Virus record (IMG/VR): IMGVR_UViG_3300032267_000657 | Span: 1-37,461 of that record | From: a virus | Length of the DNA stretch: 37,461 bases | Direction: 5' to 3' (one strand) | Part shown: piece by piece, positions 3,303 through 30,579 of the stretch | How positions within the stretch are numbered: position 1 is the stretch's first letter | How the letters are laid out: each line of letters begins with the position of its first letter | The notes under the pieces: generated by a model | The model's database searches: none | Seen by the model: only the letters and a program-made list of their open reading frames with translations | What the model was told of the DNA's origin: nothing | Made by a program: the position numbers and the translations under genes

Positions 3303-4004
3303 CTATTGAATAGTGCTGACTTTCTTCTTGACGTTGTCTAGCAGATGCAAGTGGCTCTCCAGTTCTTTCTTCAAAGCATCCGCATCGATTACCTCAGTGA
3401 CTTGCTCAACCCTGTCAGTGAACATACCCACTGCCTTGCCTATCAACTCCAAGGCTCTCAGTTGTCCGCTCTCGCTTGCCTCGTCATCGTTCACCTTATC
3501 GAATAGTTGTTGCATGACGTAGCGCCTTGCTGATGCATCGCTCTCAATTACGTTCTGCTTTGTAGCCTCCAAGACAGACCCTAGTTGCATAGTGATTCGA
3601 CTATCTTTCATTAGACGGTTCGCATTGCCTATGATCGTTGCTCTAGTACTACCTGATACGTCATAAGCCGTACTGTAAGCAGTGATGTGATCATTCCCTG
3701 ATACAAGGAGGTTGACGAAGTGAATCATCCTTGCAGTGAGTCTCTTATTGGTTTGCTTGTCTGTCTCTTCTACTATCATCCTTACTGGCTTACCTGACTT
3801 AGTCTTCTTTACCTCTATAGCATCAATAGCAGTCCGCATCACTTCGTGATCGATCCCCGATTTCGGAATGCTTGCACTGGTTGCAATCGATGTACTAGCA
3901 CTGCAATCCATCTCTTCAATAAACTTTTTTTGACTCTTCATACGGTAGTACTCCAGTAAGCGTAGCAGTTGATATTCAGGCGATTGTGGCGGTTTAAACG
4001 GCAC
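3303..4004 (-). CDS. terS: Terminase small subunit
   Basis: A 233-residue protein whose central part reads LTARMIHFVNLLVSGNDHIT followed by AYSTAYDVSGSTRATIIGNANRL. This is the DNA-binding helix-turn-helix signature of Terminase_2-type small subunits ('lt.kq..Fv...l.g.n...AY..Ay......a...a.rll....I'). The C-terminal half is helical (ESDASARRYVMQQLFDKVN, LIGKAVGMFTD) and probably forms the oligomeric ring. TerS recognises the packaging site and loads TerL, encoded 1.1 kb downstream on the same strand. The start is uncertain. GTG at 4004 gives the longest plausible helical N-terminus but has no clear SD. ATG at 3941 (212 residues) has GGAG 9 nt upstream. A GTTTAAAC site lies at the N-terminus (PFKP). 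Confidence 0.85.
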   Translation of the reverse strand: MPFKPPQSPEYQLLRLLEYYRMKSQKKFIEEMDCSASTSIATSASIPKSGIDHEVMRTAIDAIEVKKTKSGKPVRMIVEETDKQTNKRLTARMIHFVNLLVSGNDHITAYSTAYDVSGSTRATIIGNANRLMKDSRITMQLGSVLEATKQNVIESDASARRYVMQQLFDKVNDDEASESGQLRALELIGKAVGMFTDRVEQVTEVIDADALKKELESHLHLLDNVKKKVSTIQ

Positions 4005-4440: not shown

Positions 4441-4619
4441 ATGCTAGTACTGATACCCAAGGTCATGCTAGTACGAGATCTCTAGGATTCCATCAACCAT
4501 GCGGGTTAGCGGGTGGTCAAAGCTCATTCCCTGAGCCATACCCAAAGTAATACCCGACTAAGTTGTAGGGGATTAAAAAGAAAATAGTTGCACACGGTTT
4601 AAACAGTTCGTGCTAGTAT
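4441..4619 (+). repeat. TGCTAGTA repeats (3 copies)
   Basis: ATGCTAGTAC occurs at 4441-4450 and again at 4465-4474 (24-nt period). A variant, TGCTAGTAT, is at 4611-4619. The last fits an extended -10 element (TGnTAGTAT). The first two could be operators or diverged promoter copies. Confidence 0.5.
4588..4619 (+). promoter_or_regulatory. Candidate early promoter (extended -10) with GTTTAAAC between its elements
   Basis: TTGCAC (4588-4593) lies upstream of TG-C-TAGTAT (4611-4619). The 20-nt spacing is too long for a standard -35/-10 pair, but an extended -10 can work without a good -35. A GTTTAAAC palindrome (4597-4604) sits exactly where a repressor or activator would act. Transcription would start near 4626, just before the structured leader. 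Confidence 0.4.
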
Positions 4620-4666
4620 TCAGTCAGTAGTTGATGCAAGCATTAAAAACGGTGAGTAACCACCGA

Positions 4667-4979
4667 CACGTCAGAGACCAGTGCGTGGATAAAGTAAAGG
4701 GTTCAACGTCAGATGCCAGTGCGTTGTAAAAGTAAAGGGCAAGTCAATAAGAGGACTCTAAACTCACCTCAAAGGCTAGTAGGCTCTGCCCCTTGGATAA
4801 GGATCAGGCAACCGAACGAGATGCGAGAGGGCTAACGTAGCAAGGTCGTTATTCGTAACCTTGCCGTATGAGACACCTGATGCGATAAGGGTAGGTCTCT
4901 GAACGTGCGAACCAAGAGCGTTCTAAAACAAGTGTGGCTAAACGTGAGATAGCAGAGCGTTGAAAAATAAGTGGCTCTC
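4667..4979 (+). repeat. Four imperfect ~38-nt leader units, each able to form a short hairpin
   Basis: Units start at 4667, 4705, 4902 and 4941, as two tandem pairs with periods of 38 and 39 nt. Each opens with a 21-nt element of the form (C/A)ACGT-11 nt-GCGT(G/T), followed by an A-rich stretch and a GGG or GGCT. The outer pair of the 5-bp stem changes together: CACG pairs with CGTG in copy 1, and AACG with CGTT in copies 2-4. The compensatory change suggests the RNA hairpin matters. Confidence 0.6.
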
Positions 4980-5056
4980 AGAAGAGATTTAATCTCATGC
5001 TCCATTGCATACCAGTGGGGCAGAGGATGCAATCTCGCATCTTTTAAGGAGGCTCT

Positions 5057-5347
5057 ATGTGGAAATTAATCAATAGAACAGAGGCAGTGCAACGGCACTC
5101 TCACTTCGTTTTTGTTCGTGGCGATGACGTTGCAATCGCTGACCATTCACTCAACAAGGTGACCGATCCCGCATCGACAGAGGACGGTCTCTTACTGTGG
5201 GACGGCAAGCTTGGCACTATCCGCACCAATTACGTTTTACTCAGGCTCAAAGGGGATGGTGAGTCCTTTGTTTCTGTAAGCACCCTGACTGCCTATCGCA
5301 TCCAACAGGCTACAGGCAAGCAAGTAATCCCTGATCCATCAAACTAA
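5057..5347 (+). CDS. First gene of the early operon, unknown function
   Basis: A 96-residue soluble protein (MWKLINRTEAVQRHSHFVFV...). The sequence suggests a small beta-rich fold (FVFVRGDDVAIADHSL, TNYVLLRLKGDGESFVSVSTL). I recognise no family. It has the operon's characteristic AAGGAGGCTCT Shine-Dalgarno and directly follows the structured leader, so it may be strongly expressed early after infection. The next gene starts 9 nt downstream with the same type of ribosome-binding site. Confidence 0.7.
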   Translation: MWKLINRTEAVQRHSHFVFVRGDDVAIADHSLNKVTDPASTEDGLLLWDGKLGTIRTNYVLLRLKGDGESFVSVSTLTAYRIQQATGKQVIPDPSN

Positions 5348-9439: not shown

Positions 9440-9480
9440 CAGGGGGCAACCCCTGTTTTTTAAAATCAAGAAAGGCATAT

Positions 9481-12685: not shown

Positions 12686-12961
12686 TTACTTCTTTGACTT
12701 ATTTACTTTAACCGTGTGATCACTGTTGCGAGTGAACGAACGATTGTTCTTTGGTGCTTTCAATTTTAAATTACTTGGTTTATTCGTTCCACCTTTCGAG
12801 AGTGGAATGACATGATCAATGTCTTTGCCTGTTCTGTCAATTCCTTTTTTGTCTACCGCATATCTTGCTCTCGCTCTTGCGTTTCGTGAGGGTTGTTCTG
12901 CACGTTCTTTTTGTTGTTCATATTCCTTTTTATAAGGACGTGGTTTGGTGACATATGGCAT
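12686..12961 (-). CDS. HNH endonuclease
   Basis: A 91-residue protein with an HNH core DIDHVIPLSKGGTNKPSNL (D49-H50 and N60/N64), then NNRS. This is the standard 'iDHi.PlskGG.n...NL.l.c..cN..K' pattern without the usual CxxC pairs, preceded by a very basic N-terminus (RNARARARYA). Small HNH proteins in phages are either packaging or nicking accessories or free-standing homing endonucleases. It sits 17 nt upstream of the primase-helicase and probably shares its transcript. Confidence 0.85.
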   Translation of the reverse strand: MPYVTKPRPYKKEYEQQKERAEQPSRNARARARYAVDKKGIDRTGKDIDHVIPLSKGGTNKPSNLKLKAPKNNRSFTRNSDHTVKVNKSKK

Positions 12962-20241: not shown

Positions 20242-23200
20242 CTATTCGTAATCTTTCCTTAAGATCCTCACCCTAGCCGTTAACCTTAGCTGGGCATCGT
20301 GGATCTTATCTATAGCTTCACGTTTCTCATCTGCGGTCATTGTCTTAGATGCGTTGATCATTTTGCCAGCTTGATTTAACTGTTTCATAGTCTTATCTAG
20401 CGTACCAACATAGCCTTTCAACGCATACAGTTTCTTGTTCTCTTCCAAGTATGTCTTGAGATCCTCGCCATTACCAGTACGCTGTAGGGTATTGACCGTT
20501 TGAACAACGGTGTCAACCTCTTGCTTGAGATCATAGTAAGCTGAAACAGTACCCATATCACCAGCAAAAAACCGCTTGATTACAGGCAGTTGCTCCATAC
20601 GCTTAGTCGCTTTAACTGGATCGCCCTCTTGAGTCAAAGCAGAATCAATCAGCATCATTGCATAAGTACCCATCGTGCCTGTGTAGCCACGGATGAGGTT
20701 ATCAATCTTCTGCGGTGAGTACTCTAGTTCTCTGCCTAATTTTTTAGCAAGTTCAGACGTGCCAGAACCAAACTGGAATTGCGGTGCAAGACCCTCAACA
20801 CCACGACCAATGATTGGTTCGCCTGTGAAGAATGAGTGGTTCGTAGCGTTCTCAACCATAGGTAAGACGGCTTGAGGTATAGGATTAAACGACAGAGTAC
20901 TCATTGCATTACGCAGTAGGGACTCACGTAGGTCTTTGCCTGTGTCTGTGCCAAAGGAATACTCAAGCGCTCTCTCAGGGAGAACCTTAAAGAGAACACC
21001 CAACTCGAAAGGAATCGGGAAACGGAACGGCTTATCACCAACTTGGATAGCTGGGATGATCCAATAGTTATCACGTTCTTCCTTAGACAGTCTCTTGTAA
21101 TCCTCATCATCGGAAACCATAGCCCAGTACATGACGGACGTGCCGAGCAGAACCATTGAACGGAACATGAATGCTTTTTGAATGGTGTCTTTGTTCTGCA
21201 TAGCAGTCTTTCCAAAGCCTGTGCGGTACAGAACGTCAAGACCTTGGACACGTGCGTTGAAGAACGGAATCATTGCAGAAACAATGCGAATGAGGGCAGA
21301 GTTACCTTTGCGTGAGAAGTTTAAAACTTCCATTGCTTGGTAGAACGCTTCGGCTTCCGAACCAGTTCTCTCTAAGGTACGCTTGTAAACCTCGGCACGG
21401 GTCGCCATGTCTGATGCGTGAGATCCTTTTTCGAGCATATCCCAAAACGCAGTGATCGGGAGTAGTGATTTCTCGCCAACGGTGCGGGTTCCGCTACGTT
21501 TACGCAGTTCTTTCTCAACTTGTTTAGACGTGGACTTTACGTCACCAGCAAAATCATAGCCAGTCAGACCAGACCTAGCCAGAGCATTTGCTTCTGGGGA
21601 TTGGTTTGCCAGCTCTTTACCAAACTGTTTAAACGAGTCAACCAGCGGCTTCATGTCAGTTCCGCTCGTGATCCACGCTTGCATTGAGTCACGACCTAAG
21701 TTGGCAAGGATGAATCCTGGATCTTTGGTAACGAAATTACGGAGCAAGTTGGCGGGAGCAGACAAGAAATCCATAAACGGGAGCTGTGGTAGGTTTAAAC
21801 CTTTAAGAGATTCAACCAACAGCGGATCAGCTACACGGTAGTAGACGGTCATTCCCTTTTCTTTTACCGTTACAACGTCAGAACCTGACTGAGAACTAGG
21901 TAATCTTTCTCCCAATCCAAAGTCGACAACGTCACGGATAACCCTACGAGCCGCCTCGTTCTTCATACCAGCTTCAATTGCTGCACGTGCGTTACGAACG
22001 ATAGTCTCCATGAAATCATCCAATGGAGCTTCAGAACCCTTAAGTTTCTTGGGTTTAGCTACACCAGCGATTGAGGAGAAGACCTTTGGTCCTGCCGTTT
22101 TCTCGCCATCTAGCTGACGATAGAATGGGATGTAATCCCAATTTTCAGTCCATGACTTAGCTTCTTGCGGGGATATTACCCCAGTGTCCATCATGTACTT
22201 AACTAGACCTGAGTTGTACTTCTGATACTCATCGAACACCGTAGCAAACTCAGGGAATTGCGACTCTAATTCTTTGCCGTAGGCGATGTCTTCCTTGGTG
22301 AAAGTCTTCTCACGACCTTCCGCATCAAGTCTTCTACCCCTACGAGTACCAGCATAGTACTGGAATGTTTGGAATATGTATGGGTCGTTGTACTTCATCA
22401 AAGGCTCAAGAATCGGGATCAGACCTTTAACCTTGCCATCCATATCGCTAACGTATGTGTAGCCCTTGTCAAAGACAGGGATACCATCTTTAAACGAGGA
22501 TGCGGCTACTCCCGCTGCACGGTCAGATTGCAACGCAGCTGCGATTGCTGAGTTCTCAGCCAGCAGTTGATCGCCACCCATCTTCTCGCCTCTTAAACGA
22601 GAGAGTTGCTCAATGGACTCATACTTATTAATTAAGCTTTGACGTAACTGTGTCATAGCCGTTGGAGAAATGGCATCCATTAAACGCTCTACAAATCCAG
22701 CTTGCTTGCGTCTGGTTGTAGTAGAACCAATACGCTCGTTTAAACGGTCAGACAGCTGGCTGCGCAGGGAGAACAACGGCATACCCTCGCCCACTTTTTC
22801 ACGGATCTTCTCTGTAATACTAAAACCAGTTTGCGCATTCGATGTTGCTGGGTCATTAGCACGTAACCAGTCTTTTGCATCGTCATAAGTCATTGGCTCA
22901 GTAGTTACTCTTTCGCCAGTTTTTGCATCTTGAACATAAGCGTTTTCATTTGATAAATCTGAAACAACGGTATATTTAAACTTTATGTTTGACGGAACCA
23001 TTACACGAACTGGAACAATCACTTTTTCTAAGTTACCGCCACCAATTTTTTTCAATACATCATTAGCTACTTGTGGAAGAATATTGTCGTAGTAGTTAAT
23101 CATTCCCCTACCGCCAGCTTTTATGTCCATGCCAGATAATTCTTTATTGTTGCGGTATCCACGACCTTGATACTTGTCAAAAATATCCCGTGTTAAGCCG

Positions 23201-26200
23201 CTAACGTCACGCAATGTTCCAGAATAACCACCAGGATCGTCACGCATTAACTCCACAACCCTTTCAATTTCTCCGTCTTCGTAAACGCCCAGTTCTCCAC
23301 GTTTAGCTTTTTCTTCCCATGTAGAAATTGCTTTATCTATTTGCTCTTTGGCTTGCTCTTTTGTAGGAGATGAATCAACACCATCTTTAACTTTAACGGC
23401 AATTTCTTTTCCAAATGTTGCCTCTATCTCTTCTAAAGTTTGATCGTCTCTATTAAAAATAACGCTATCGTTTTTGCTTGCATCAATATTGTAAGTGCCG
23501 TCATCATTTTTACTGTAAACAATCTTGTCAAGATGTATGCTCAAATCATAACGATCAGCAGATTGTGTGCCGTTAATAAACGCTACTTTGTCGTATCCGT
23601 TTTCAGATGCATAAGCAATGATGCGTTTTAATGCAAGACCTGTCCAAGCTTTGGTGTCTTTAAATGGAGCATTTGGAACTCCAAGCATTTCGGTAGATAA
23701 ATTATTATACAAATTTTCCCACTCGTCATATCTTCCAACATCACGTGCTAAATTTTCCAATTTCATAAAATTGTTAGTGGCTGCGTATTGAGTGGCTGCT
23801 TTTTCAGCAAATTCATCAATTGGCATATTTTTTAAAGCTTTGCGTAATTCAGGCTCTGATTCGTATTCTTTTCTATAAAAATCCACGTATTTATCATGGG
23901 ATTGTTTTTTTATTTCAACAATAAAATCGTTATACTCTTTTTCAGCATTTTTATTTATTTTATAGCCTTGCTTGCGACCAGACTGATGCCAGTCAGACTG
24001 AATTTCTTCAATGAATAAAACTTTAGCGCCTTTACGATCTTTGCGATCATTCATGCGAATGTGGGCTAAAATGTTTTCCTCTTTCCAATGCGATGATTTA
24101 TATTTTGGTGAGTCTGGTGAGGCATCTTGAGTTGGTGCATACTCTTTGATTGCATCTTTAGCTTCTTTAGCGTAATACCAAATTTTGTCTGTTACACCGC
24201 TACCAGTTTTTGCATATTCATCAATTGCGCTTGAATATAACTTATAACCTTTGTCCTCTGGAGAAAAAACAACTTCCCAATTAGATGGAACTTGTTTTGC
24301 TGGTAATGTAATCAACATTTCCTGATAGTTAGTACCACCATCTAACTGATAGTCTTGATACTTTGTTTCGTTCTTTTCTTCACTCTTGTTTACTTCCTCA
24401 AGACGTACACCGCCCTGTTGCAAGTAATTAAGAATTTCTTCTTTAGAAACCTTCTTATCGCCTTGGAGATCAAGCCAATCGTTAATACCGCTAAACTGTA
24501 GCTCTTCTGATTTAACACCCATCTTAGATGCATTAGATGTTAACCATGCTTTGACTTGCGGGGCTTTACCAAAGATGCGGTCAGGAGTAGCCTCAATACC
24601 TTTTTCTAACTGAGAGTAGTACCATGCGTTTGGCGCACGGATTGAATACTTAATGCCTTTTTCGGCTAGTTCCTGTACTGTTCCCTCGTAATTAATTGGA
24701 GTGTTGTGATTAAGAACAACCATCATTCCCATGTCTGGAATGGCATAGCCATCGTAACCAGCATCAACAATTGAGCTTTCAAACTTATTTGAATCCTTAC
24801 CAGCGGCTTCGTACAACTCGCTCATGCGTTTGCTTGGAGCAAGGATGTTGTCAAACTTTTGCTTGTGTACGTAATTACCTAAGCCAGCTTCTTTAGGTTG
24901 CATTCTGCCTGTGACGGCATTCTCAATATAGAAGTACACACGGTTTTTAATGCGTGGATCATTGGTCTCGTATAAACGAGTAGCTTCTGCGCCTCTGATT
25001 CCAGAGCCGTACTTGTTACCGTTTAAAGTGGTTTGTGGTGCATTGCTATAGTGAATAGCATCAAAACTTACCGCATCGGCTTGCTTAGTGCCAAGGACGA
25101 TTCCCCCGCCACCTTCGCTGGGTCTTTCGGTAGATTCTGTAGGTCTAAATTTTGTAAAGGGAAACTCTTTGCCTTCGGATATGGACTTGGCTTGTTCTGC
25201 GGAACCTTCATCGTATTCATCTATCATTACTCCATCTGATTTTGTTGGTGGCTGATTGTACTCTGGGTCATATACCATGAATACAACGTCAGGCTTACCG
25301 TTGCTAAAGTCTGCAAATACTTTCTTATCCCAACCCTCTGCATATTGTTCGTCAAATTTTAAACGGGCAACAGTTTTAAATCCGTTGTTGTAATACAACT
25401 TTGGCAAAATTGTATCGTATGCATCAAGCCTTCTTCCACCCTCTTGAACTGCCAACTGCATGATTGCGTTAACACCGCCAATATGGGGCGACTGTGAGAA
25501 TACTGAAACAATGTCATCACCTTTTAAAGCAAACCCAGCCTTGCCGTCATTGGTAAGGAACATACGCATACCAGCGTAATCTTCTGCTGGATATACTTGC
25601 ACTGCCGCACCAAATGGATTGCTTTCTTTAGCGGTAGATATTGAGTCTTCAAATAATGCCGCTCCATTAGAACTTAATTCGTAAAACGTTGGCGCAGTTA
25701 CATCAGCATTTTTTAATGCATTTTTAAACTTAATGACAGGTTTAAATTCTGCAATTGCATTTTGTCCTAGAATCCGAAAGCCGTTGCCATTTTTTCCGCT
25801 AGTTCCCTTGTAAGCGTTGGGTGATCCCGCATTGCGCTCTCTATAGGATCGTATGATTCCTCTGGTGATGAAGTGGCTGCGTTCTTTGCCAGCAAAGCCG
25901 ACATTTCTTCCTTCGGAGCCAACTTGATTTGTGCGTTCTCCATCATTTCGTTGTATTGCTCTTGTTCTGTCCGCATATTCTTTCTCCGTATCGGCTGTTA
26001 CAGTTTTGATCTTTGACTCAGGTATGCCGTTTAAACGTGCTAGTTTTGCAGCAGCGTTTGCATAGTCTGGTGCTTCGTCATCTTTGTATCCTTCACTAAT
26101 CTTACTCTCTTTTGCAATGTCATACAAACGTCTTTCGGGATACCACAACAGTGCCTGTAAATCAGACATTGTCATATTTGGATAGCCACGTTCACGCACT

Positions 26201-29200
26201 TCATCCAATATGCCTGAGAAGACTTCACGAATGTAGTTACGCTCGGCAGGACCAGCTGGCGCTTCTTTCTGTGCATCAATGTAGTCAACAAGACCATTAG
26301 AAGTCTTGCGCATTGTTCGACCAATAGCACTCTTATTAAAGAATGTGCGGTTTAAAGGTTTTTGTGAAGCCTTGTTAACGGCAGTAGCTAGTGCATCAAC
26401 GGCATCGGTACTTGCTAAGTCTGCTTCTGTAATGGTCTTGCCAGTAATTCTTTCAAAGCGCTCACGGCTTGCTTTGTTTGCTGGTCGGAGCAATCCCTTG
26501 ATTAAACGTTCCATCTCGCCACGTTTGCTATCAATCAGACGTGTGTTGTCATCAATTAAAGAACCAGTCCAACGACCCCAAGTTCTCATTAACCAACGAT
26601 CCATTGTCAACTGGTCAAAGATACCGTTTAAATTAGAGAAGAATCCATTGCCAATTTTTGGTCCGAGAATGGATGCACCTAATACTTTGGTATCGGCAAA
26701 CTCACCGCCTACTTCAAGGTTTGTCAGGCTCTCAATCTGCTTGACAGTAAACTCGGTAGCCATGAACTTACGCATATCATCAATGCCGTACTTGTCGATC
26801 ATTGAATTAAATAGCTCTAAGCTATTATTAATAGCTTTTTGTGTCTCACCAGCCTTGAGGTTGGTAGGCATCTTGCCTGTTTTCTTGTAAATATTGTAGG
26901 CTTGCTCGGCTAATTCAAAGTTCTTATCAACCTTCATGCCGTTAGATGTAACTGCTAAAGCCCAAGTAAATGCAAATTTGGCATCGGGATCAGTCTTAAT
27001 CTCTGGATGCATCAAGCTAACAATGTTTAAAGCTTTAGTTACAGTCTTGTCGTACCAACCTACCGCATTTGCGTTAGTCTTTAATGCGTAAATGGCATCG
27101 TCTACACCAGCTTTAACTAGGTAGTCAGTAGTCTCATCTTCTGTTGAGGCAAGATCAATGCCTTCTTTTTCTGCGGCAGCTAAGACTTGATCTTGAATAG
27201 CTACCTTTAAATCACGATTGCGTTTGAAATCACTGTCACGGGCAAAGTTAAGAATGTTTTCAAGGGAAGAAGTTTGACGTAAAGAAGCTTTTGGTTTTTC
27301 TTTAGGCTTAAGTTCTGGGTACTTTGCAAACACTTCTTCCTGTGGAAGGGTGTATACGTCTAGCATTTGCTGGGCATCTTTGCGTTTGTCAAACTCTTGA
27401 ATTAAGCGTCCATCAGATATTCTTCTTAACTCGTAACTTACTTGATCAGTAGTTCTGCCACGAGGCTGGGCTTTACGCACCACCTCGTAATCACCTCTTG
27501 GTTTTATTGAAAGCTTAGTCTCATCAGACACAGCTTCCTTGGCTGGTTGCTTCTTGCCTTCTTCAATGCTGGTAAAGATGTCATCAGTAGTTTGGAAACC
27601 AAGCTTGTTAAAGGCATTGCGTAAAGCCTCGAACATCTTGTTTAAACGCACCCAGATATTGCCGATCATGCCAGGTGGAAGGCTGCCTACCTTAAAGTCT
27701 TTAAACGCTTCGGCAATAGCTTCTTCCTGAATGTATGGCTCAAACCCAATAAGGTTTCCGTTCTCTTCCAAGTACCGTGCTTTGTACGCATCGTACAAAT
27801 TAGCGTCTTTAATGTATTTCTGTATCCATTCGGACTTAGCCTTGTTCTCAAGGACTTTCCATTCTTGTGCAGTAAACGCACCCAACTCTTTTAAGGCATG
27901 GATAGACTCATGGCGCAACGTTCCCATTGGGTTCTTAGAATCCAAAGCAATTGCCATGACTTGCTTAATGTAGTAACCGTCAGCCGTTCCGTCTTCAATA
28001 CTATTAAGTACACGTAGGGCTACCTTTTCTAAACCAAAACGTTTTAACGCTGGCAATAGGGTCTGGCGCAGTTTCTCAAGGTTGTCATGGACTTCCTTGC
28101 TATAGATGCCAAGGCTTTCCAAACGCTCTTTAGAACCCTTCAAGCCCTTGGTTGTAGTAATCGCTATGCCACGATCAGTCTCAATGGATTGACGGTCATT
28201 TAGCTCTTTCTGAGCTAGGTCTGCGTAACGTTTAACCCGCCCAGTTTGTTTTTGAGCGCCAGCAGAATCAATGATTTGTTGCAGTGTCTTGTCATCTAGA
28301 CGGCTAATACCGTAGGCTTCTGCCTGTTCTTCGCTATCAAACTTAACTTGTGGCTGATCCTTCTCGTAGAAAGTAAAACTATCCTTGGCTACGGGTTTCA
28401 TTTCCAGTGGTGCTACACGCACTGGCTCAGAAAATGTCTGTTGTTCTTCACGTAGATTCTTAATAGTTTGCTGTGTAACTTGGTTCTGACCATAGTAATT
28501 GGCTGACTTAATAAAGAAAGGATTGCCTTGGTCGTATCCTAGGGCTTGATCATTAACCAACTCGGCATCCCGTTTAGCCATTTCTGACTCAAGCCTTTTA
28601 ATTGTTTTTTCTATTTTTACAATTTCTTCTTGACGCTTTTGTTCATAGACAGCCGCATTCTTCTCAGCTTCTTCTACTGTTTCCATCGTACTGATGACAC
28701 GGTTACCAGCACGTACTTCGTATGCTGATGGGGTCTCTCCCTGTTTAAACGTCTCTTTACGAATATCCATGCCGCCAGGCAGCGGTGTCATTGCTGTGGC
28801 TGGTTTAAACGTTTCAATCGTGCTGCCAGTGGAACTTGCCTTAACGTTCCTCTCTAGGTCGCCATTCCTGACAGCTTCATCCAGAATACGTTGCTGGTCT
28901 CTCTCTTGCTTGAGACCGCTATATTTTTCAATCAGTTTAAGAACGCTACTTCTGCCGTTCTCTTGATTGCCCATTTCTTTAAATTCTTTGGACAAGCCTT
29001 TGAGCGTATCGTTATATTGGTCAGGTGTGTAGTGCTTGGCATTGGTAATACCAGCCTCAAGGATCTGGGTTTCTTCGCCAGCTTTGAGGTTTCTAATAGC
29101 CTGAGCAACGGCAAAACGTTGCGGAGGAGACATCGTATTAAGGTCTTCAGATCCAGTAACCCTAGCAAGGAAGTCTCTAAATCCTTGGGTTCTTGTGTCT

Positions 29201-30579
29201 AATCCACGTTGCTGTGCAGCAAGTTCAACGGTTTGTGCTGGGATGTCTTCACCAGTGAAGTTGGTACGTGAAGCGATTAAACGACCCAGTACGCCTTCCG
29301 CAGCGGTAGACTCTTCTGGTTTAAACACGTCAGCCAGATCTTCAATTGAGAATGTACGCCCAATACGGGGTTTACCCATCTCAATTCTACGTTTGTTAAC
29401 TTCAGCAACCTCTTTAGCGCTAAGGTCTGTAGATTTAAAGCGACCCAAAGGATCTTTTAATGGATCAGCTTGCTCTTCAATAGGCTCAAGTTTGGTTTCT
29501 GGGGCTGGTAAAGCCAATGTTGTTGGGACACCAAGGTTCTGAGAAGTTTGTTTAAGCTGGGCTTGCTCTGCAAGATAGGCTTCACGTTGGGCTTTCTGAC
29601 GGTCTTGAATAGCTTTTTGTTGCTCTTCCTTCTCCATCTCAGCGCCCTTACGGACAATCTGACCACGCTCAAGGTAAGTGCCAGGAACACCCAATGTGCC
29701 ACCAAGGACTGCACCGCCAATAAAGCTATCAAAGTACTCGTCTCTGGCTTTCTGGTCTGTTAGGTTTAAACCTGCTTGCAAACGTTCTAGGAACTGTTGC
29801 CCAGCTTCTGTGGTTCCTTCAATAGTAGCTGTTCTTAATGCGCCAGCACCGTATGCACCAGTGGTTTTAAGAATGCCTTGTTCGGCAATTTGTTGCGCCA
29901 ATTTAGGAGTAATTTCTTTGCCAGCAGCACCAAATATCTTGCCAATTCCAGGAATCATACGTAAAGATACAACGTCTAAAGCGGCTTGAGGAGCAGCTGC
30001 CGCTGCTGCGCTAGAAAGACTTGTATCAGCCAAACGCATCTGAGGATTCTCTTGCATTTGGCGGGATAAGTTAGAACCTGTAAATTGAGCTAAAGAAGCT
30101 AATCCAGCACCAGCTAATCCAACTCCAGTAGCTATTGGGGCTGCAACACCTACCGCTGGAAGAGCTGCTGCGCCAATACCAACAGCTAAAGGAGCGGCTG
30201 TATATGGGAGAGAACCGCCCAACAGTTCTTTAAATTTAGTAAACGGAGCTTCAGCAAAACTTTCTTTGGTAGGCGTAAACATCTTTTCTGCAAGACGTTC
30301 TTTTTCAGTTTTGTATTTTTCTGCCGCCTCGGTATCCATGATGCCAGTGCGACCAGCTAAAGCGGCAACGTCACCCTTTAAACGCTCTTTACCAGCTTTA
30401 AATGCGCCAGTAAATCCAGTATCTGTCTTAGTACCTGCAAGTTCTTTTTCAAATGCAGTCGGCTCTACAGGTATTCCTTTGGCTTCTTGATACGCTTGAG
30501 CAACAATGTTGAACTCTTTAGTTCCCCTTTTGTCAGCGTTATTAATAATCCACTGAGCGTATTCTTCTGCCTTTGCCAT
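20242..30579 (-). CDS. Giant polyvalent virion protein with protease-like, GNAT-like and ART-like regions
   Basis: A 3445-residue protein, over a quarter of the window. Visible parts: an N-terminal helix (EEYAQWIINNADKRGTKEFN); a long Ala/Gly hydrophobic segment at about 120-170 that could cross a membrane; HESIH at 890-894 (zinc metallopeptidase motif); a GNAT-like stretch near 1650-1770 (DGKAGFALKGDDIVSVFS); an ADP-ribosyltransferase-like stretch at about 1840-1990 (HYSNAP, YGSGIRGAEATRL, NRVYFYIENA); a recurrent phage domain at about 2070-2300 (HWKEENILAHIRMNDR, IEEIQSDWHQSGRKQGY); and an LPD38-like C-terminal third (about 2700-3400; RNFVTKDPGFILANLGRDS). Polyvalent proteins are packaged and injected with DNA. 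It overlaps the previous gene (TAATG). Enzymatic activities are inferred. Confidence 0.85.
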   Translation of the reverse strand: MAKAEEYAQWIINNADKRGTKEFNIVAQAYQEAKGIPVEPTAFEKELAGTKTDTGFTGAFKAGKERLKGDVAALAGRTGIMDTEAAEKYKTEKERLAEKMFTPTKESFAEAPFTKFKELLGGSLPYTAAPLAVGIGAAALPAVGVAAPIATGVGLAGAGLASLAQFTGSNLSRQMQENPQMRLADTSLSSAAAAAAPQAALDVVSLRMIPGIGKIFGAAGKEITPKLAQQIAEQGILKTTGAYGAGALRTATIEGTTEAGQQFLERLQAGLNLTDQKARDEYFDSFIGGAVLGGTLGVPGTYLERGQIVRKGAEMEKEEQQKAIQDRQKAQREAYLAEQAQLKQTSQNLGVPTTLALPAPETKLEPIEEQADPLKDPLGRFKSTDLSAKEVAEVNKRRIEMGKPRIGRTFSIEDLADVFKPEESTAAEGVLGRLIASRTNFTGEDIPAQTVELAAQQRGLDTRTQGFRDFLARVTGSEDLNTMSPPQRFAVAQAIRNLKAGEETQILEAGITNAKHYTPDQYNDTLKGLSKEFKEMGNQENGRSSVLKLIEKYSGLKQERDQQRILDEAVRNGDLERNVKASSTGSTIETFKPATAMTPLPGGMDIRKETFKQGETPSAYEVRAGNRVISTMETVEEAEKNAAVYEQKRQEEIVKIEKTIKRLESEMAKRDAELVNDQALGYDQGNPFFIKSANYYGQNQVTQQTIKNLREEQQTFSEPVRVAPLEMKPVAKDSFTFYEKDQPQVKFDSEEQAEAYGISRLDDKTLQQIIDSAGAQKQTGRVKRYADLAQKELNDRQSIETDRGIAITTTKGLKGSKERLESLGIYSKEVHDNLEKLRQTLLPALKRFGLEKVALRVLNSIEDGTADGYYIKQVMAIALDSKNPMGTLRHESIHALKELGAFTAQEWKVLENKAKSEWIQKYIKDANLYDAYKARYLEENGNLIGFEPYIQEEAIAEAFKDFKVGSLPPGMIGNIWVRLNKMFEALRNAFNKLGFQTTDDIFTSIEEGKKQPAKEAVSDETKLSIKPRGDYEVVRKAQPRGRTTDQVSYELRRISDGRLIQEFDKRKDAQQMLDVYTLPQEEVFAKYPELKPKEKPKASLRQTSSLENILNFARDSDFKRNRDLKVAIQDQVLAAAEKEGIDLASTEDETTDYLVKAGVDDAIYALKTNANAVGWYDKTVTKALNIVSLMHPEIKTDPDAKFAFTWALAVTSNGMKVDKNFELAEQAYNIYKKTGKMPTNLKAGETQKAINNSLELFNSMIDKYGIDDMRKFMATEFTVKQIESLTNLEVGGEFADTKVLGASILGPKIGNGFFSNLNGIFDQLTMDRWLMRTWGRWTGSLIDDNTRLIDSKRGEMERLIKGLLRPANKASRERFERITGKTITEADLASTDAVDALATAVNKASQKPLNRTFFNKSAIGRTMRKTSNGLVDYIDAQKEAPAGPAERNYIREVFSGILDEVRERGYPNMTMSDLQALLWYPERRLYDIAKESKISEGYKDDEAPDYANAAAKLARLNGIPESKIKTVTADTEKEYADRTRAIQRNDGERTNQVGSEGRNVGFAGKERSHFITRGIIRSYRERNAGSPNAYKGTSGKNGNGFRILGQNAIAEFKPVIKFKNALKNADVTAPTFYELSSNGAALFEDSISTAKESNPFGAAVQVYPAEDYAGMRMFLTNDGKAGFALKGDDIVSVFSQSPHIGGVNAIMQLAVQEGGRRLDAYDTILPKLYYNNGFKTVARLKFDEQYAEGWDKKVFADFSNGKPDVVFMVYDPEYNQPPTKSDGVMIDEYDEGSAEQAKSISEGKEFPFTKFRPTESTERPSEGGGGIVLGTKQADAVSFDAIHYSNAPQTTLNGNKYGSGIRGAEATRLYETNDPRIKNRVYFYIENAVTGRMQPKEAGLGNYVHKQKFDNILAPSKRMSELYEAAGKDSNKFESSIVDAGYDGYAIPDMGMMVVLNHNTPINYEGTVQELAEKGIKYSIRAPNAWYYSQLEKGIEATPDRIFGKAPQVKAWLTSNASKMGVKSEELQFSGINDWLDLQGDKKVSKEEILNYLQQGGVRLEEVNKSEEKNETKYQDYQLDGGTNYQEMLITLPAKQVPSNWEVVFSPEDKGYKLYSSAIDEYAKTGSGVTDKIWYYAKEAKDAIKEYAPTQDASPDSPKYKSSHWKEENILAHIRMNDRKDRKGAKVLFIEEIQSDWHQSGRKQGYKINKNAEKEYNDFIVEIKKQSHDKYVDFYRKEYESEPELRKALKNMPIDEFAEKAATQYAATNNFMKLENLARDVGRYDEWENLYNNLSTEMLGVPNAPFKDTKAWTGLALKRIIAYASENGYDKVAFINGTQSADRYDLSIHLDKIVYSKNDDGTYNIDASKNDSVIFNRDDQTLEEIEATFGKEIAVKVKDGVDSSPTKEQAKEQIDKAISTWEEKAKRGELGVYEDGEIERVVELMRDDPGGYSGTLRDVSGLTRDIFDKYQGRGYRNNKELSGMDIKAGGRGMINYYDNILPQVANDVLKKIGGGNLEKVIVPVRVMVPSNIKFKYTVVSDLSNENAYVQDAKTGERVTTEPMTYDDAKDWLRANDPATSNAQTGFSITEKIREKVGEGMPLFSLRSQLSDRLNERIGSTTTRRKQAGFVERLMDAISPTAMTQLRQSLINKYESIEQLSRLRGEKMGGDQLLAENSAIAAALQSDRAAGVAASSFKDGIPVFDKGYTYVSDMDGKVKGLIPILEPLMKYNDPYIFQTFQYYAGTRRGRRLDAEGREKTFTKEDIAYGKELESQFPEFATVFDEYQKYNSGLVKYMMDTGVISPQEAKSWTENWDYIPFYRQLDGEKTAGPKVFSSIAGVAKPKKLKGSEAPLDDFMETIVRNARAAIEAGMKNEAARRVIRDVVDFGLGERLPSSQSGSDVVTVKEKGMTVYYRVADPLLVESLKGLNLPQLPFMDFLSAPANLLRNFVTKDPGFILANLGRDSMQAWITSGTDMKPLVDSFKQFGKELANQSPEANALARSGLTGYDFAGDVKSTSKQVEKELRKRSGTRTVGEKSLLPITAFWDMLEKGSHASDMATRAEVYKRTLERTGSEAEAFYQAMEVLNFSRKGNSALIRIVSAMIPFFNARVQGLDVLYRTGFGKTAMQNKDTIQKAFMFRSMVLLGTSVMYWAMVSDDEDYKRLSKEERDNYWIIPAIQVGDKPFRFPIPFELGVLFKVLPERALEYSFGTDTGKDLRESLLRNAMSTLSFNPIPQAVLPMVENATNHSFFTGEPIIGRGVEGLAPQFQFGSGTSELAKKLGRELEYSPQKIDNLIRGYTGTMGTYAMMLIDSALTQEGDPVKATKRMEQLPVIKRFFAGDMGTVSAYYDLKQEVDTVVQTVNTLQRTGNGEDLKTYLEENKKLYALKGYVGTLDKTMKQLNQAGKMINASKTMTADEKREAIDKIHDAQLRLTARVRILRKDYE

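Follow-up and report, generated by a model that had tools for sequence, protein, structure and literature searches.

What is the role of a stretch of phage DNA that contains no ORF, carries a series of repeats and stands at the head of an early operon? The question arises in a virus record of 37,461 bases (G000, one strand; the window), in which an earlier note had proposed a structured early leader with four hairpin repeats and a compensatory change. The terminase genes run leftward (large subunit 687-2192, small subunit 3303-4004), and from position 5057 a rightward early operon encodes small ORFs, a conserved 187-aa protein, a CobS-like ATPase and a CobT-like protein. Within 4620-5056 every plus-strand ORF is shorter than 60 aa. 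DNA searches with the leader or with the 15-kb early region retrieved no near relatives of the window among 50,697 phage genomes, and all relatives used here are IMG/VR records and GTDB genomes.

Setting and layout of the leader

A promoter-like site lies on the plus strand at 4597-4619, directly upstream of the repeats. It consists of the palindrome GTTTAAAC (4597-4604) and the extended -10 element TGCTAGTAT (4611-4619), with the -10 itself at 4614-4619, and it speaks against a transcription start downstream of the repeats. This geometry is common to most of the 21 related leaders that we checked, with GTTTAAAC located 9-13 nt 5' of the extended -10 and the end of the -10 located 19-44 nt 5' of the first hairpin. 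The leader begins about 30 nt downstream of the phage promoter, is about 400 nt long and modular. Read from its 5' end, it is composed of a 5' hairpin, a pseudoknot pair, a small pseudoknot and a core, followed by variable hairpins, a second pseudoknot pair, 3' hairpins and a Shine-Dalgarno sequence (AAGGAGG, 5046-5052) that precedes the first early gene (96 aa, ending at 5347). On the evidence of comparative sequence analysis, 4626-5056 is shown to be the 5' leader of the rightward early operon, non-coding and constrained as RNA. Folding energy gave a z-score of -3.4 against shuffles for the plus strand and -1.8 for the minus strand, weak evidence by itself, as pseudoknots are left out of the fold calculation. 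Since no terminator separates the leader from the first gene in the window, the leader is most likely co-transcribed with the early genes.

The palindrome GTTTAAAC occurs 28 times in the window, with 0.84 occurrences expected from base composition; its sites include 3992, 4406, 4597, 10920, 10937, 13289 and 13368, and it occupies the promoter spacer in most leaders. These sites look like an operator or stoperator system. The leftward early operon starting at 12961 carries in its leader a match to RF02932 (the Rfam Betaproteobacteria-1 RNA; 13211-13090, minus strand, 68.4 bits), so that this other operon may also have a structured leader. A single ORF of 3445 aa (20242-30579, minus strand) makes up about 28% of the record.

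Pairing in the units, the core and the flanking modules

The four repeat units begin at 4667, 4705, 4902 and 4941, as the earlier note had placed them, and the best-matching 20-mer (from unit 2) occurs in the window in units 1 and 2 only, with 0.00 occurrences expected by chance. They had been described as hairpins with a 5-bp stem. The stem (P1) exists and is made up of four Watson-Crick pairs and an invariant U.G closing pair; what had been overlooked is a second helix (P2) of 3-4 bp, in which the loop pairs with the end of an A-rich tail. Judged by this pairing, each 38-nt unit is an H-type pseudoknot with a 4-bp P1. In pseudoknot 1 (4667-4703), P1 joins 4667-4670 to 4684-4687 and P2 joins 4677-4679 to 4700-4702 (ACC/GGT); in pseudoknot 2 (4705-4741) the helices are 4705-4708/4722-4725 and 4715-4717/4738-4740 (GCC/GGC, plus T4714-A4741). 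The second pair follows the same plan, with 4902-4905/4919-4922 and 4912-4914/4935-4937 (CCA/TGG) in pseudoknot 3 (4902-4938), and 4941-4944/4958-4961 and 4951-4953/4974-4976 (AGC/GCT) in pseudoknot 4 (4941-4977). The proposed switch of the outer pair between C-G and A-T is present among the units, and across relatives each of the four Watson-Crick combinations is found at this pair (GC 15, CG 12, AU 10, UA 5).

Units were picked by P1 and the loop ends only, so that P2 played no part in their choice, and pairing was counted in a fixed gapless register that sets loop positions 11-13 against tail positions 36-34 (a free-register permutation test is too permissive). Among 32 units the three P2 pairs were Watson-Crick in 30, 32 and 32, making P2 99.0% paired. 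In 42 distinct units from related leaders, 99% of P2 cells were paired, individual pairs taking as many as four Watson-Crick types, and over the whole structure 99.7% of cells were paired and 91 were changed on both sides. The covariation score of these 42 units was 0.801 versus 0.159 when shuffled, none of 500 shuffles reached 0.801, and slid registers gave pairing of only 24-42%. A neighbour-joining tree built from the unpaired columns requires at least 14, 6 and 8 changes at the three P2 pairs (at least 28 in total). Five units have an extra hairpin in the tail and a shifted P2 register, yet P2 is kept (TGCC/GGCA twice, TGCA/TGCA once and GAA/TTC twice). The invariant letters T5, G8, A14, G15, G17, A25-27, A30 and G33 sit in the loops and tail, which suggests that they make ligand or tertiary contacts.

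Outside the units, the stems named earlier at 4840-4864, 4870-4899 and 5026-5041 are present; a small pseudoknot (4742-4765) and the core (4767-4830) were missing from that inventory. The small pseudoknot pairs AGTC (4742-4745) with GACT (4754-4757) and GAG (4751-4753) with CTC (4763-4765); read by eye, the latter helix is CAG/CTG in L021, L022, L034 and others. The core consists of a closing stem, CCTC (4767-4770) with GAGG (4827-4830), around AAAGGCTAGTAG-hairpin-GAACGAGAT (4771-4822). In an alignment of the phage set alone, 94.4% of its cells are paired, seven pairs have changed on both sides, the inner helices covary, and the covariation score was reached by 0 of 500 shuffles. Its closing stem appears as CCTC/GAGG, CGTC/GACG, CGGGC/GCCCG, AGAGT/ACTCT or GGTGT/ACACC, and a bulged-G motif could arise from the AGTA and GAA strands beside the inner stem. 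A core consensus from a joint MAFFT alignment of prophages and phages misplaced the hairpin and was discarded as wrong.

The 5' hairpin (4650-4665; stem CGGTG/CACCG, loop AGTAAC) is paired in 100% of cells over six variants, with two of its pairs switching both letters between CG and GC. The middle domain formed by the hairpins at 4840-4864 and 4870-4899 is variable, and many relatives carry another domain in its place. The 3' module (4984-5041) contains GAGATTTAATCTC (4984-4996), a hairpin at 4998-5022 with the loop GCATACC, and the hairpin at 5026-5041; the former hairpin is 100% paired in seven variants, with five pairs changed on both sides. Covariation in relatives, whose lack had been set beforehand as grounds for giving up the idea of a structured leader, is strong, and pairing and covariation counts across relatives strongly support such a leader with compensatory change. 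We regard this structural claim as close to certain.

Distribution and exchange of modules

Searches with the downstream proteins retrieved 18 distinct IMG/VR loci (L002-L019, of which L003 and L008 are one contig). The core pattern AAAGGCTAGTAG-N5-35-AACGAGAT retrieved 34 stretches, and a pattern derived from the units 33, including 13 new contigs. Across dozens of freshwater phages pairing is kept while the letters change. The core is also found in Comamonadaceae prophages. Of nine GTDB matches to the core pattern, five are due to chance (L055-L058 and L061); the four genuine loci are those of Acidovorax sp. NB1, Comamonas jiangduensis, a proteobacterial MAG and a contig that bears the label Pantoea sp. 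18069. With a core covariance model, 4 of 399 Acidovorax-family genomes match, one of them weakly. Two matches of the pseudoknot pattern in host genomes were set aside as chance, lying inside coding sequence that resembles the ATP synthase b subunit (atpF). The leader RNA belongs to phages and prophages and is not an RNA of the host.

The modules differ between phages in presence and number. L024 and L045 are 98% identical over 3 kb, and L024 is without pseudoknots 3 and 4; L093 has three tandem units. The domain between the core and the second pseudoknot pair is swapped between phages, and L009 and L011 combine other cores with the same 3' module. These comparisons show, within the reach of sequence alignment, a leader built of exchangeable modules around a conserved core. 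L049 has two copies of the 3' hairpin module, one (1482) ahead of its first gene and one (1701) ahead of its second, a pattern that would suit a module moving together with gene cassettes.

At the nucleotide level the 5' part of the leader is 96-98% identical between relatives, versus 83-87% for the genes. At least nine gene families, unrelated to one another, supply the first gene after a leader of this kind, and the first gene of the window also stands behind the different leader of L011; the leader is therefore unlikely to serve one particular gene. Downstream of the core-bearing leader of L050 lie two type II hammerhead ribozymes (4914-4973 and 5220-5279). An early gene of the Comamonadaceae-type phage L077 (1424-1699) has a translation that resembles acyl carrier protein, a likeness noted without a family search.

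Known RNAs and possible roles

A search of Rfam 15 with the leader returned no plausible family at E values up to 10; the sole line was an opposite-strand hit to a microRNA family, scoring far short of that family's cut-off. None of the covariance models, including those of STAXI (RF01728) and preQ1, recognises the leader. By this measure it is a new RNA family, absent from Rfam and undescribed, whose function we can only infer. The STAXI pseudoknot, which mobile elements carry in two or three repeats (PMC2864571) and which is reported from Enterobacteriales, differs in that its model does not match the leader at E values up to 10. GOLLD, ROOL and other large ncRNAs, often found in phages, are likewise multi-domain and pseudoknotted (PMC12286853); they differ from the leader, which matches them neither at gathering level nor at E up to 10 and is a co-transcribed leader.

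We tentatively favour a cis-acting, antitermination-like role, in which the leader would promote put-like read-through, because of its position and the mid-operon terminators. The leader would fold on leaving the polymerase and stay with the transcription complex, directly or via a bound host protein, making the polymerase pass terminators in the early operon. The core would be the essential contact and the pseudoknot pairs additive docking sites, an action comparable to that of HK022 put or the EAR RNA. EAR, of Bacillus eps operons, is a pseudoknot-containing RNA that causes processive antitermination; it differs from the leader in belonging to a cellular operon, in its sequence and in being a single element, and the leader has no match to it at E up to 10. 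The put RNA comprises two stem-loops in about 70 nt, has a compact fold that includes a triplex, and is bound to the beta' zinc-binding domain (PMC9378689). It suppresses termination unaided by proteins. Like putL and putR, the leader lies directly behind an early promoter, in an operon with internal terminators as predicted from sequence. It differs from put in its length of about 400 nt, at least five pseudoknots, a multi-part core and an unrelated sequence, and does not reduce to two stem-loops in about 70 nt. By analogy, it occupies the same place as put, and possibly has the same task, with a different build.

In the window an intrinsic terminator, predicted to be strong, lies inside the early operon after the CobT-like gene (9440-9461, plus strand; ACAGGGGGCAACCCCTGT-TTTTTT). 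About 18 nt separate the end of its U-tract from the next ATG (9481), a distance into which a usual promoter would not fit. The same terminator-ATG arrangement is found in L023, and L083 has a terminator near the contig end; mid-operon terminators were found behind only three group (a) leaders. Eight core-bearing Comamonadaceae regions, together about 67 kb downstream of the RNA, contain 31 stringent terminators on the RNA strand versus 2 on the opposite strand, a bias partly expected since the genes (roughly called) are mostly co-directional with the RNA. These predictions suggest that operons behind the leader may need read-through. The position directly behind the promoter at the start of the early operon, the service to many unrelated first genes and the high conservation of the 5' part also speak for it. 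On the other side stand the architecture, which differs from put, and the control regions, which also have coding-strand terminators (0 to 5 per 12-16 kb, reaching 5 in 16 kb), terminators following the coding direction. A terminator directly behind the RNA in some prophage copies (L060, L053) fits a free-standing ncRNA too, and the absence of a pseudoknot pair from one of the near-identical L024 and L045 would be odd for an essential antiterminator.

That last difference would fit a decoy, a reading to which we give a rather lower probability: the pseudoknots would capture and inactivate a protein of the host, such as a type III toxin (of ToxN, TenpN or CptN type) or some other defence factor that binds RNA, with modules gained and lost in an arms race, as between L024 and L045 or in the triple array of L093. 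Type III antitoxins (ToxI, antiQ, CptI, TenpI) are tandem H-type pseudoknots (PMC5086642), and phage phiTE escapes ToxIN through RNA mimicry of them (PMC3475682, PMC5086642). The paired units of 38-39 nt, in which both P1 and P2 covary, resemble these repeats of about 34-40 nt in topology, length and A-rich strands and tails, and their helices vary whereas the letters of loop and tail are kept, as expected for a protein ligand. The leader differs in that its units are not near-identical (they differ from each other in P2), are embedded in a larger conserved RNA, and are followed in the window by neither a terminator nor a ToxN-type gene; the ORFs after the leader (96, 64 and 187 aa) match no toxin family. 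The ToxN family (PF13958) had no match in 12 phage records, and control genomes likewise gave none. The 399 sampled Burkholderiales genomes yielded no similar unit apart from the two chance matches in the apparent atpF.

Slightly less probable still is a leader that acts on the translation or lifetime of the early mRNA, its modules shielding the 5' end and positioning the ribosome with no action on the polymerase. The 3' module stands directly before the Shine-Dalgarno sequence, recurs before the second gene of L049 and is retained in leaders that lack the core and pseudoknots (L009, L011); such a role leaves unexplained why the core is so strictly conserved in phages whose first genes are unrelated, and why there are four to five pseudoknots over 300 nt ahead of the start codon. 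A ligand-binding riboswitch array of preQ1-I-like tandem pseudoknots seems very improbable: the short stem, loop-tail helix, A-rich tail and size recall small pseudoknot riboswitches, but no Rfam riboswitch matches at E up to 10, the downstream genes share no theme, and copies vary in number and can be lost. To any other function besides antitermination and these rivals we assign a small probability.

Returning to the read-through reading, very few systems are known in which phage early transcription is under RNA-only or RNA-led control, and the leader is a recurrent, strongly covarying RNA outside Rfam. The module swaps between near-identical phages make its parts separable, and since hosts such as Acidovorax and Comamonas are culturable, the antitermination, decoy and translation models are directly distinguishable. 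Possibly, the leader represents a new class of phage regulatory RNA, found in Comamonadaceae prophages as well as in freshwater phages. In such a class an invariant core would be surrounded by an array of pseudoknots that bind protein or polymerase and can be plugged in or exchanged for one another, and the set of modules may be adjusted, as modules are won and lost, to the host or to its defences.
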